64,000 bases of DNA from NCBI GenBank assembly GCA_030694935.1, contig JAUYUA010000034.1:1-64000 (forward strand), read 5' to 3'. This DNA is from Lutibacter sp. (GTDB taxonomy: Bacteria; Bacteroidota; Bacteroidia; Flavobacteriales; Flavobacteriaceae). The notes beneath the pieces are model-generated. The model had not been told where the DNA came from. It searched no databases and saw only the letters and a list, made by a program, of their open reading frames with translations. The position numbers and the translations under genes are program-made. This document shows positions 3,895 through 52,867 of the stretch, piece by piece. Every line of letters begins with the position of its first letter. Within the stretch, counting starts at the first letter, position 1.

Positions 3895-4288
3895 GGGGAC
3901 GACTGGTTTTGACTGCAAGGTCAATTAAGGTATAAGCATGTCGAGTAATGAAATAGCACTCGTAAATCTCAATTTCAAAAATTTAAACGGCGAAGATAAC
4001 TACGCTTTAGCTGCTTAATCCGAATCACAGTAGGATGAGCCTTGTCACACTAGGTGTGAAAGCTGAATGTCTCTTGAAAGCCTTGGTTAGCGGCGGTCAA
4101 TAAAGAGGCATCGTAAAAGTTAACATAGATTTGCCATTGTTTCGTTGGCATTTTGAAACTTAAGAAACTAGGCTTAAAGTGGGCGGTTTTCGGTCAGCTT
4201 TAAGTCAAAAACCAAACGAAAAATAAACATGTAGAAAGTATTTTGGTTGCTTGTTTGGACCCGGGTTCGATTCCCGGCGTCTCCACTA
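3895..4288 (+). ncRNA. ssrA: tmRNA (transfer-messenger RNA)
   Basis: 5' ggggacgactggttttgactgcaagg..., 3' ggacccgggttcgattcccggcgtctccact, and an internal tag reading frame ggc gaa gat aac tac gct tta gct gct taa (GEDNYALAA*) at 3989-4018. Confidence 0.95.
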
Positions 4289-37120: not shown

Positions 37121-40039
37121 ATGAAAAAATTAATTATTGCCAGTATCTTTTTATTCCTTGCCACAAGCTACGGACAACAAATTGACCCTTTGTTAACCTC
37201 TGATGCCAAAAACCAAGAAAGATGGGTTGACAGCATTATGAAAAAACTCACCCTAAAACAAAAAGTAGGCCAATTATTTATGATTGAGGCTTATTCTAAT
37301 AGAGATGAAAAACATACTTCAGAAATAATAAAAACAATTAAAAAATTCCGTATTGGCGGACTTATTTTTATGCAGGGAACACCTGAAAAACAGGCGCAAT
37401 TAACAAATGTTTTTCAGTCAGTTTCAAAAACGCCTTTACTTATTGGTTTTGATGGAGAATGGGGTTTAAATATGAGATTGAAAAATTCATTTCGTTATCC
37501 TTGGAATATGACTTTAGGAGCCGTTCAAAACAATGAGTTAATTGAACAATTCGGCATTCAATTAGGGGTACACAGCAAAAGAATTGGGATTCACGTCAAT
37601 TTTGCTCCTGTTGTAGATATCAACACAAATCCTGAAAACCCAATTATTGGCAATCGTTCATTTGGAGAAAATAAATATAACGTAACCGAAAAGGCAATCT
37701 CATTTACCAAAGGAATGCAAAGTACTGGCGTTTTGGCAAATGCCAAACACTTTCCCGGCCATGGAGACACTTCAACCGATTCGCATAAAACACTTCCATT
37801 TCTGGATTTCGATTTAAAACGATTAGATTCCATTGAATTATATCCTTACAAAAAAATGTTTAGCACAAACTTGGCGAGCATTATGATTGCTCACTTAAAT
37901 GTGCCTTCCCTTGAACCTGAAAAAGGTGTTCCAACCTCAATTTCACATAAAGTGGTTACTGGACTTTTAAAAGAAAAGATGGGTTTTAACGGATTGGTTT
38001 TTACCGATGCGTTAAATATGAAAGGCGCCGCAAATTTCGCAAAACCTGGAGATATAGATTTAGCGGCCTTTATTGCGGGAAATGATATGTTACTAATTCC
38101 TGAAGATGTAAAAGTTGCCATAAAAAAAATAAAAAAAGCCATCAGAAAAAATAAAATTAGCGAGGAACGGCTAAACGCATCCGTTAACAAAATACTAAAA
38201 GCTAAATACTGGGCTGGCCTAAACCATTATATTCCAATTAATGAAGATGGAATACAAGATGATATTATAACCACAAAAGACAAATTGTTGTTTAGAACTT
38301 TAATGAAAGAGGCAATTACGGTCGTTAAAAATAACCATGAAACACTGCCTATAAAAGAACTGGCAAACAACAAAATTGCTTATGTGAAATTAGGCGATTC
38401 GGACAATTTAAACTTTACGAATACCTTAAAAAAATATACGGAAGTTGACATTGTTTCCGATGAAAATTTAGACGGTTTGTCAGGAAAATTAAAATCGTAC
38501 AACACCATTGTTATAGGTTATCATAAATCAAACGAAACGCCTTGGAAAAGTTTTAAAATGACACCTGAAGAGCTAATCTGGCTTAAGGAAATTGCCAAAA
38601 ACCATGTCGTTATTTTAGATGTTTTCGCAAGCCCTTATGCCCTTCTTGATATTCCCGATTTTGATGCCATTGATGCCATTGTGGTTTCTTATCAAAACAG
38701 TGAAGTATCCCAGGAAATTTCAGCACAAATAATCTTTGGCGCAATAGAAGCAAAAGGAAAACTGCCTATTTCAATTAAAACTATTTTCCCTGAAGGAACA
38801 GGAATTAAAACGCCAAATTTAGGCAGGCTTTCTTATTCGATTCCTGAAGAAGTTGGAATGAGTTCTAAATTACTTCAAAAAATCGATTCTATGACTACTA
38901 TGGTAGTTGATTCTTTAATGGCGCCTGGCGGACAAGTCTTGGTCGCGCGTTATGGCAAAGTGATTTATCATAAAAGTTTCGGTTTTCAAACCTATGACAA
39001 AATACAAGAAGTAAAATTAACAGATTTATATGATTTGGCTTCCATAACAAAAATAGTTGGCGGTTTGCCTATGATTATGAAAAGTGAAGAAACTGGATTA
39101 TTAAATCTAAATTCAACCCTAGGTGAATTATTGCCTTATTTAAAAGGCACAAATAAAAATACTGTCACCCTAAAAGAAGTGTTGTCTCACATAGGAAAAA
39201 TTAAAACTTGGATTCCTTTTTATTTAAAAACGATAGATAGTGTCACCAAACAACCAATGCCAAATTTATACAGATCAACAGAAACCAAAGAATTCTCAAT
39301 TAAAGTAGCAGAAAATTTGTATCTGTTGGGTTCTTATAAAGATTCTATTTATAAAATAATTGCCGAAGCGCCGCAATACAAAGAAAATGGATACAGATAT
39401 AGTGACTTAGCATCTATTTTATATGAGAAATATATAAAAGATACCTATAAGCAAGCGCTTGATAAGTTAAATGATTCCATTTTTTATAAACCATTGGGAG
39501 CCACATCCATCACATACAATCCTTTAAAAAAATTCAACACACAAGATGTTGCACCTACGGAAATAGACGATTACTATAGACATCAACATTTAAAGGGATA
39601 TGTTCATGATATGGCCGCAGCAATGATGGATGGCGTGAGCGGCCACGCAGGCTTATTTGCAAATTCCAATGATCTTGCCAAAATGATGCAAATGTATTTA
39701 CAAGGTGGTTATTATGGCGGAAAAAGATATTTTGAAGCAAAGACAATCGACAAATTCAACCATAGATATTATGAAAATATTGGTGTTAGAAGAGGGCTAG
39801 GTTTTGATAAACCAGACTTAGACCCAAAAATTAGTGCCGCAAGTAAATTTGCGTCGGCAAACAGTTTTGGTCACAGCGGATTTACAGGAACTTATACTTG
39901 GGTTGATCCGGATAATGGACTTTTATTTGTGTTTTTGTCGAACAGGGTTTTCCCTGTGATGCACAACAATAAACTGGGGGAGCACAATATTAGAACAAAT
40001 ATTCACAACTTAATTTATGAAGCGATTATTAAGCAGTAA
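37121..40039 (+). CDS. GH3 beta-N-acetylglucosaminidase (NagZ-like) fused to a serine beta-lactamase-like domain
   Basis: NagZ signature AKHFPGHGDTSTDSHKTLP and FTDALNM; C-terminal domain with SITK, YRYSD and FGHSGFTGT. Confidence 0.92.
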   Translation: MKKLIIASIFLFLATSYGQQIDPLLTSDAKNQERWVDSIMKKLTLKQKVGQLFMIEAYSNRDEKHTSEIIKTIKKFRIGGLIFMQGTPEKQAQLTNVFQSVSKTPLLIGFDGEWGLNMRLKNSFRYPWNMTLGAVQNNELIEQFGIQLGVHSKRIGIHVNFAPVVDINTNPENPIIGNRSFGENKYNVTEKAISFTKGMQSTGVLANAKHFPGHGDTSTDSHKTLPFLDFDLKRLDSIELYPYKKMFSTNLASIMIAHLNVPSLEPEKGVPTSISHKVVTGLLKEKMGFNGLVFTDALNMKGAANFAKPGDIDLAAFIAGNDMLLIPEDVKVAIKKIKKAIRKNKISEERLNASVNKILKAKYWAGLNHYIPINEDGIQDDIITTKDKLLFRTLMKEAITVVKNNHETLPIKELANNKIAYVKLGDSDNLNFTNTLKKYTEVDIVSDENLDGLSGKLKSYNTIVIGYHKSNETPWKSFKMTPEELIWLKEIAKNHVVILDVFASPYALLDIPDFDAIDAIVVSYQNSEVSQEISAQIIFGAIEAKGKLPISIKTIFPEGTGIKTPNLGRLSYSIPEEVGMSSKLLQKIDSMTTMVVDSLMAPGGQVLVARYGKVIYHKSFGFQTYDKIQEVKLTDLYDLASITKIVGGLPMIMKSEETGLLNLNSTLGELLPYLKGTNKNTVTLKEVLSHIGKIKTWIPFYLKTIDSVTKQPMPNLYRSTETKEFSIKVAENLYLLGSYKDSIYKIIAEAPQYKENGYRYSDLASILYEKYIKDTYKQALDKLNDSIFYKPLGATSITYNPLKKFNTQDVAPTEIDDYYRHQHLKGYVHDMAAAMMDGVSGHAGLFANSNDLAKMMQMYLQGGYYGGKRYFEAKTIDKFNHRYYENIGVRRGLGFDKPDLDPKISAASKFASANSFGHSGFTGTYTWVDPDNGLLFVFLSNRVFPVMHNNKLGEHNIRTNIHNLIYEAIIKQ

Positions 40040-40090
40040 TTTTAAAAAAATCTAGTGAAATTATATATTTTTATATCGATTTTTTTAAAA

Positions 40091-40140
40091 ATTTAACATA
40101 TTTATTTTTGGCAATTAGAATTATTTTGTATATTTGTCTC
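40091..40140 (+). promoter_or_regulatory. Bacteroidota-type promoter driving sRNA copy 1
   Basis: TTG at 40108-40110, 18-nt spacer, TAtaTTTG at 40129-40136 (matches the TAnnTTTG -7 consensus). Confidence 0.7.
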
Positions 40141-40210
40141 GGTAAGTTTCATAGCTTACCATCTTTTTCATAGCAATTTTCCTCACTCTCCTTGAGTGAG
40201 GTTTTTTTTT
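40141..40210 (+). ncRNA. Candidate free-standing small RNA, copy 1
   Basis: Hairpin GGTAAG-TTTCATAG-CTTACC, single-stranded linker containing TTTCATAGC, then terminator CCTCACTC-TCCTT-GAGTGAGG + T-run; no ORF; near-duplicate at 40439-40510. Confidence 0.7.
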
Positions 40211-40388
40211 GGCTAATTTTAAATGCGGTTATTAAAGCTTTTTTATTCGCTCAAGCAAAAAAGCAAGTGACATTTCTAGCGATTTTTAAAGATTTGTTGC
40301 AGTCCTATAGTTGCTGTTTTTGATGCTTCAAAACTTATTTTTTAATGAACCTATAATTCATAATCAACTTTTCTAAATTTTTACAAAA

Positions 40389-40438
40389 TTTTAACATATT
40401 TATTTTTGGTAATTAGAATTATTTTGTATCTTTGTGTT
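40389..40438 (+). promoter_or_regulatory. Bacteroidota-type promoter driving sRNA copy 2
   Basis: TTG at 40406-40408, 18-nt spacer, TAtcTTTG at 40427-40434. Confidence 0.7.
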
Positions 40439-40510
40439 GGTAGGTTTCATAGCTTACCATCTTTTTCATAGCAATTTTCCTCACTCTCCTTGAGTGAGGT
40501 TTCTTTTTTT
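40439..40510 (+). ncRNA. Candidate free-standing small RNA, copy 2
   Basis: Hairpin GGTAGG-TTTCATAG-CTTACC (G-U keeps the stem paired), identical linker and terminator to copy 1. Confidence 0.7.
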
Positions 40511-40567
40511 ATACAATTCCTATTCAATTTTTATAAGTATCTTTGCCCGCTCAAATAAACATAAACT

Positions 40568-40813
40568 ATGCTTTTAGGAATTACGATTACAGAATGGGTT
40601 GGGTACGCGGCCTCTTTAGCGCTTATTATTTCATTTATGATGAAGAATATAAATACCCTCAGAATTATAAATTCTATTGGCGCAGTGCTTTTTGTGGTTT
40701 ACGGAATAATGTTAGAAACTTCTTATCCAATTATCATCACAAACGCATTTATTTTAATGGTCAATATTTATTATTTGACCTTTAAAAGAAAGGTGATTTC
40801 CTTAAAAGTATAA
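40568..40813 (+). CDS. Small inner-membrane protein, YgjV-like
   Basis: ITEWVGYAASLALIISFMMKNINTLRIINSIGAVLFVVYGIM. Confidence 0.65.
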   Translation: MLLGITITEWVGYAASLALIISFMMKNINTLRIINSIGAVLFVVYGIMLETSYPIIITNAFILMVNIYYLTFKRKVISLKV

Positions 40814-49933: not shown

Positions 49934-50036
49934 TTTTTTGTTGGAAAGACCGAAGACGGAAGTCGGGAGTCGGAAGTTCAAAAATTTCAAGTTTGATGTT
50001 TCAAATTTAATAAATTTAGAAATCGTAATTCCTATT

Positions 50037-50122
50037 GCGTTAGGGGTTGCAGTGCAAAACCTTTTTGCGCTTTTTCAGCACAAAAAGTTTGGAACGTAAG
50101 ACCCGACCCGCAGGGGAACGCC
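50037..50122. repeat. Structured intergenic element, candidate dispersed repeat
   Basis: gcgttaggggttgcag...aacgcc with internal stem AAAcCUUUUUGcGC / GCaCAAAAAGUUU. Confidence 0.45.
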
Positions 50123-52367: not shown

Positions 52368-52867
52368 AAAGTTGAATTCAACGGCAAATTTACATCGTAT
52401 TTTTTCACTTCATTTACTTTTTGGATTTTTTATTGGTGGATTTAACTAATTTTGAAAGTGATTTTGAAAAAATATAATGAAAAACGAAAATGCTTCTCAA
52501 CATTATTTGAAGAGCCATTTAAAAAACCTCTATCACAATAAAATTTTAAAAAATGTCGCTAAAAATGCACGAATTGTTGCGTTGTTTGGTTAGGCTCTTT
52601 TGTGTAACTTAAGTTTCCTGATTTAAAAATTTATACAACTAAATAATTAATTATATCTATATTTGAAGAGGAGTACAATAGGCTCAATCGGTAAAAAAAA
52701 CACTTAGTTATAAAAGTTAAAATCACTTTAAGACTAACTGACAAGCCTCGGAAAATTGCATTTTAAATCCGCAACTTCCCTTACCCTAAACCACCGCTAG
52801 TGCTCAAGCCAAAAATAGGAGATTCCCGAAAATCCTTTAAAGAGTAGGGAAATTAAATATAGAATCA

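Follow-up and report, generated by a model that had tools for sequence, protein, structure and literature searches.

The stretch of Lutibacter DNA analyzed here, 64,000 nucleotides in all and referred to below as the window, contains a 528-nt gap between a gene with a GH3/beta-lactamase domain (Pfam), ending at 40039, and an 81-aa open reading frame (ORF) at 40568, whose start lies at about 40543-40568. No ORF of at least 50 aa lies inside the gap, which holds a direct repeat of 132 nt (40079-40210 and 40377-40508; 93% identity, spacing 298) in the form of two head-to-tail units. Both units read on the plus strand. Unit 1 has a promoter of the Bacteroidota primary-sigma type at 40108-40136 (TTG at 40108-40110, N18, and TATATTTG at 40129-40136), followed by a 5' hairpin at 40141-40160, GGUAAGUU-UCAU-AGCUUACC (DNA GGTAAGTT-TCAT-AGCTTACC), for which orthologues show compensatory changes. 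An unpaired, invariant 18-nt stretch, CUUUUUCAUAGCAAUUUU (DNA CTTTTTCATAGCAATTTT), which we call the core, occupies 40163-40180, and an intrinsic terminator with an 8-bp hairpin (CCTCACTC/GAGTGAGG at 40181-40201) and a U tail ends the unit (40181-40210). Unit 2 repeats this order with a promoter at 40406-40434 (TTG at 40406-40408, N18, and TATCTTTG at 40427-40434), a 5' hairpin at 40439-40458, GGUAGGUU-UCAU-AGCUUACC (DNA GGTAGGTT-TCAT-AGCTTACC), the same core at 40461-40478, which has sequence matches in its own genome and in other genomes of the family, and a terminator with the same 8-bp hairpin (CCTCACTC/GAGTGAGG at 40479-40499) and a U-rich tail (40479-40511).

The first-pass annotation of this DNA had described near-identical tandem units in a non-coding gap, each with TTG-N18-TAnnTTTG, a 5' hairpin, and a perfect 8-bp terminator hairpin, and both sequence and fold agree with that description. 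Its further observation that the A-to-G change in the 5' arm of unit 2 relative to unit 1 keeps the pairing as G-U was confirmed. The 5' hairpin of each unit sits at the expected transcript start, and the two predicted 74-nt transcripts fold as two hairpins with an open linker (z = -6.1 for unit 1 and -6.3 for unit 2; 0 of 200 shuffles as good). In both units a further copy of the core motif UUUCAUAG lies in the hairpin loop region, so that the motif is presented twice, a feature that the first-pass annotation missed.

A known Rfam family had been named in advance as the finding that would make the units real but not new. When the Rfam scan was run, no family reached its gathering score at the tandem units, so this objection does not apply. 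The best subthreshold match was anti-hemB (RF02837) with 25.2 bits, about half of the gathering score of 49.5, and the Flavo-1 model (RF01705) gave no match at 40040-40567 even at an E value of ≤10. It is therefore unlikely that the units are one of these RNAs or the described Flavobacterium small RNA (sRNA) Rfp18: the anti-hemB score is far under its threshold and reflects only a hairpin plus a terminator, and Rfp18, although likewise a conserved flavobacterial sRNA, pairs according to its description with a third stem-loop, which sets it apart from an RNA with two hairpins (PMC9723704). Our literature search found nothing on this core sRNA, nor on any sRNA behind dnaJ, the position of many of its homologues (see below). 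We consider the family new to Rfam and previously uncatalogued; an expressed homologue may stand in the Rfp1-89 table under another name. Elsewhere in the window, all on the plus strand, the scan found a Flavo-1 RNA at 50032-50112 (43.7 bits, gathering score 42), 10 kb from the units, a DUF805b cis-regulatory RNA (RF02914) at 52816-52850 (41.9 bits), and a tmRNA gene at 3895-4288 (161.6 bits).

The exact 18-mer was found in 216 of 251 Flavobacteriaceae genomes, representing 204 of 238 genera, while the same word read backward had no match in this genome set. In a sample across the phylum, it was present in 16 of 31 genomes from the family and in none of 269 from outside it. One genus (g149) mostly does not have the exact core, which occurs in 2 of its 17 genomes. 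The closest relatives of the ORF next to the units are in Lutibacter records, and all 36 other Lutibacter genomes sampled carry a match to the unit. Thirty orthologous Lutibacter loci were found by BLAST and hence not selected by the core, which makes them an unbiased set for conservation; the 18-mer is 100% identical in 30/30, and 22 nt around the linker are the same in all of them, while hairpin, promoter, and flanks average 61 to 72% per column (hairpin 68%, promoter 63%). The family-wide copies were found by the core itself, so its invariance among them is given by construction, and the unbiased evidence is its prevalence together with the BLAST-found set. The linker had been described as A/U-rich; that description overlooked that this unpaired stretch is the conserved part of the RNA. 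The core looks like the working part, and the hairpins look like interchangeable scaffolding.

Most core matches across the family have the same anatomy with different hairpins. A hairpin of at least 6 bp lies immediately upstream of the core in 95.7% of 140 distinct copies (9.4% in shuffles), and these copies have 94 different 5' arms with pairing maintained. In 123 of 139 copies (88%), a TAnnTTYG (-7) box lies no more than 14 nt from the hairpin, versus 3.2% in shuffles. This box, together with the orthologues in 36/36 Lutibacter genomes, shows that the units are not a chance resemblance. In the alignment of Lutibacter orthologues, 97% of the hairpin cells are paired and five pairs have changed on both sides; with sliding pairing partners, far fewer cells are paired. 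RNAalifold did not find a common structure in a mixed alignment of 40 sequences, because MAFFT misaligns the swapped hairpins, and we therefore took the structural evidence from the within-genus alignment and the anchored count. The sequences show an anatomy of promoter, swappable 5' hairpin, invariant single-stranded core, and terminator, and they show its conservation, covariation, distribution, and synteny. We infer that the units are transcribed.

We investigated where the copies lie. Of 43 family loci, 39 have the core sRNA directly behind dnaJ, whose product ends in ..FFEKVKDMFS and was identified as DnaJ with NCBIfam; an ABC transporter ATPase gene usually lies downstream. On the genomic comparison the dnaJ-linked copy is the ancestral, family-wide one. 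The genome of the window has four copies, one of this kind (G000:C72), two in the window pair, and the fourth at C89. Lutibacter genomes have 2 to 11 sites each with a 13-nt core, mostly paralogous sRNA genes, and the window locus in this genus holds one to three copies in a variable tandem arrangement. Other Flavobacteriaceae genera have tandem arrays as well, one of them with four copies within 1.1 kb (L112, G092:C1:570950-571998). The tandem pair of the first-pass annotation is thus real but only one Lutibacter-specific set of a multilocus family that spans the Flavobacteriaceae.

Unit 2 lies about 60 nt upstream of an ORF on the same strand, and 40 of the 43 family loci have a codirectional downstream gene, as would be expected if the hairpin and terminator were a cis-acting attenuator of that gene. 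We regard this as highly improbable. A promoter of its own adjoins the hairpin in 88% of the copies, the downstream genes vary by paralogue (the dnaJ/ABC locus, the window locus, and intergenic sites in phages), the next element after unit 1 is unit 2, and the perfect terminator has no alternative pairing partner. By contrast, the repeat, the orthologues, the folds, and the promoter box strongly support the claim that the units are duplicated sRNA genes that stand alone, each with a promoter and a terminator of its own. The window pair is almost certainly two predicted copies of a stand-alone sRNA of about 70 nt that belongs to a paralogous family found throughout the Flavobacteriaceae.

The exact complement of the core is AAAAUUGCU-AUG-AAA-AAG, that is, a start codon followed by Lys-Lys. 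Start codons followed by two lysines are a common beginning of exported proteins. Because the core is antisense to this sequence, we take start-codon masking as the leading mechanism. The 5' hairpin and the terminator would shield the RNA and display the core, which would pair in trans with mRNA start regions and keep ribosomes off a set of mRNAs, in the way of the FopS sRNAs of Bacteroides; extra sRNA copies might raise the dose or respond to different conditions. The earlier label of trans-acting sRNAs fits the anatomy, the trans action itself being a proposal and not a proven property; targets and function are likewise predictions.

Outside the sRNA genes, 18 gene starts across 29 Lutibacter genomes have the perfect 13-nt antisense site TTGCT-ATGAAAAA, and 5 across 38 genomes have TTCGT-ATGAAAAA, a control word that exchanges two letters; this is a 4.7-fold excess (P = 7e-4; Fisher test of start versus non-start sites, P = 0.002). 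The assignment to start or non-start was made partly by eye, and the counts omit a few sites that lay at contig ends or had not been retrieved. About 0.10 start sites per genome are expected from position base frequencies. When only unrelated gene families are counted, the excess has a P value of 0.02. Many of the Lutibacter genes with such starts encode exported proteins. In the genome of the window, 13 bp of perfect pairing would span the start of a DUF4359-like gene (L241). Three similar genes in different Lutibacter genomes (L179, L231, and L308; integrase-like by eye) also start with TTGCT-ATGAAAAA. At another locus (L108, G178:C12), positions 1500 and 2389 are exact 18-mer matches without a hairpin or terminator, and the latter, read antisense, is the start codon of the ORF MKKIFDNKRNTMK..., a perfect 18-nt complement. 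The best candidate, a zinc-ribbon gene with complementarity in three Lutibacter genomes, was rejected as a conserved target, as its start region is conserved only among a few Lutibacter and not in other genera.

In a sample of 60 genera, the ratio of start to non-start sites was not significant (Fisher P = 0.18), and the core-antisense word also had more non-start matches than the control word, a difference that the CpG in the control word probably explains. In duplex energy, the core was no better than shuffled cores against 316 start regions of one Lutibacter genome, which was covered by searches and by 400 kb of sampled stretches (31 of 100 as good). This lack of a general start-region preference is what would be expected if the core were a site for a sequence-specific RNA-binding protein, either a chaperone or a regulator titrated in the fashion of CsrB, with mRNA pairing secondary or absent. 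Such a site would also account for an unpaired 18-nt stretch that is exact in more than 200 genera, stricter than a multitarget seed requires, and for the second UUUCAUAG in the hairpin loop region, which is seen in 36 of the 140 copies, among them the window pair and further types of paralogue, and which would fit a protein site that occurs twice. Moreover, FopS has a protein partner, the RRM protein RbpB (PMC11697453). The candidate protein is hypothetical, however, and protein binding would not explain why perfect antisense sites are in excess at the start codons of Lutibacter; we consider it a serious rival, though less likely than not. An invariant core could also be explained by one fixed RNA partner, such as a second sRNA, rRNA, or tmRNA, for which the core would act as a sponge. 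This is very doubtful, since the genome of the window has only three further sites with one or two mismatches to the 18-mer, the two of them examined are start-codon-like or coding contexts and not RNA genes, and pairing between core and tmRNA is weak (-8.6 kcal/mol). The probable docking partners of the core are target mRNAs or an RNA-binding protein. Start-codon masking is the mechanism we favor, with a confidence that falls just short of even and with protein recognition close behind.

Copies are also found in phages. A 17-mer of the core is present in 80 IMG/VR contigs, with the full anatomy in about 13 to 18 of them, some borderline and judged by eye. Unannotated copies occur in isolated phages of three families, namely, the Polaribacter phages Leef (L539:2501-2527), Danklef (L540:2501-2534), and Freya (L541:2501-2529) and the Tenacibaculum phage Gundel (L542:2501-2520), where the copy lies directly before a tRNA cluster. 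These copies were detected with the short core query; a BLASTN search of plasmids and phages with the complete unit had no match. Integrases were reported in the three Polaribacter phages, and the main text of the flavophage description does not mention a small RNA (PMC8776804). Our tentative overall picture, held with clearly less than even confidence, is a near-universal Flavobacteriaceae sRNA that Rfam lacks. Its unpaired 18-nt core would serve throughout the family as a fixed element against start codons or for protein recognition, and several unrelated phages carry copies, possibly acting on host translation or titrating a host regulator. The phage copies make exploitation of the same RNA circuit by phages a testable question. 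One fixed core in 86% of the sampled genomes also gives a single handle on the whole family, with one probe, one pulldown bait, and one deletion locus behind dnaJ. Flavobacteriaceae are major degraders of marine polysaccharides and include fish pathogens, and their posttranscriptional regulation has been little studied.

The core sRNAs are a real family of sibling sRNAs, built like the FopS sRNAs of Bacteroides. FopS is a family of paralogous sRNAs in Bacteroides thetaiotaomicron with 14 genomic copies and a reported phage copy, and the two share a length of about 65 to 70 nt, multiple copies, a primary-sigma promoter, a conserved stretch common to the members of each family, and copies in phages (PMC11697453). 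On our side, RNAs of about 70 nt with TAnnTTTG and 2 to 11 core-bearing sites per Lutibacter genome were found. FopS-10 blocks translation in vitro (PMC11697453), and both FopS and GibS use a conserved seed to bind start regions (PMC11697453, PMC7366714). FopS differs in that it was described in Bacteroidaceae and has its R1' seed at the 5' end, whereas the conserved stretch of the core sRNA lies between two hairpins. GibS shares a conserved unpaired seed, whose pairing covers start codons and whose phylum lacks Shine-Dalgarno signals, but is a single gene of about 145 nt with two seeds and a noncanonical promoter (PMC7366714). Rfp18 of Flavobacterium psychrophilum is conserved across species and strongly structured, and its deletion changes protease mRNA levels; as far as the descriptions go, its pairing stem-loop contrasts with the unpaired core (PMC9723704). 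Flavo-1 is likewise a structured RNA of Bacteroidota with a copy in the same window, but its model does not match the tandem units. FopS is the nearest analogue in organization and proposed action, followed by GibS; the likeness is one by description and does not amount to a claim of membership in FopS, in which the conserved stretch is placed differently.
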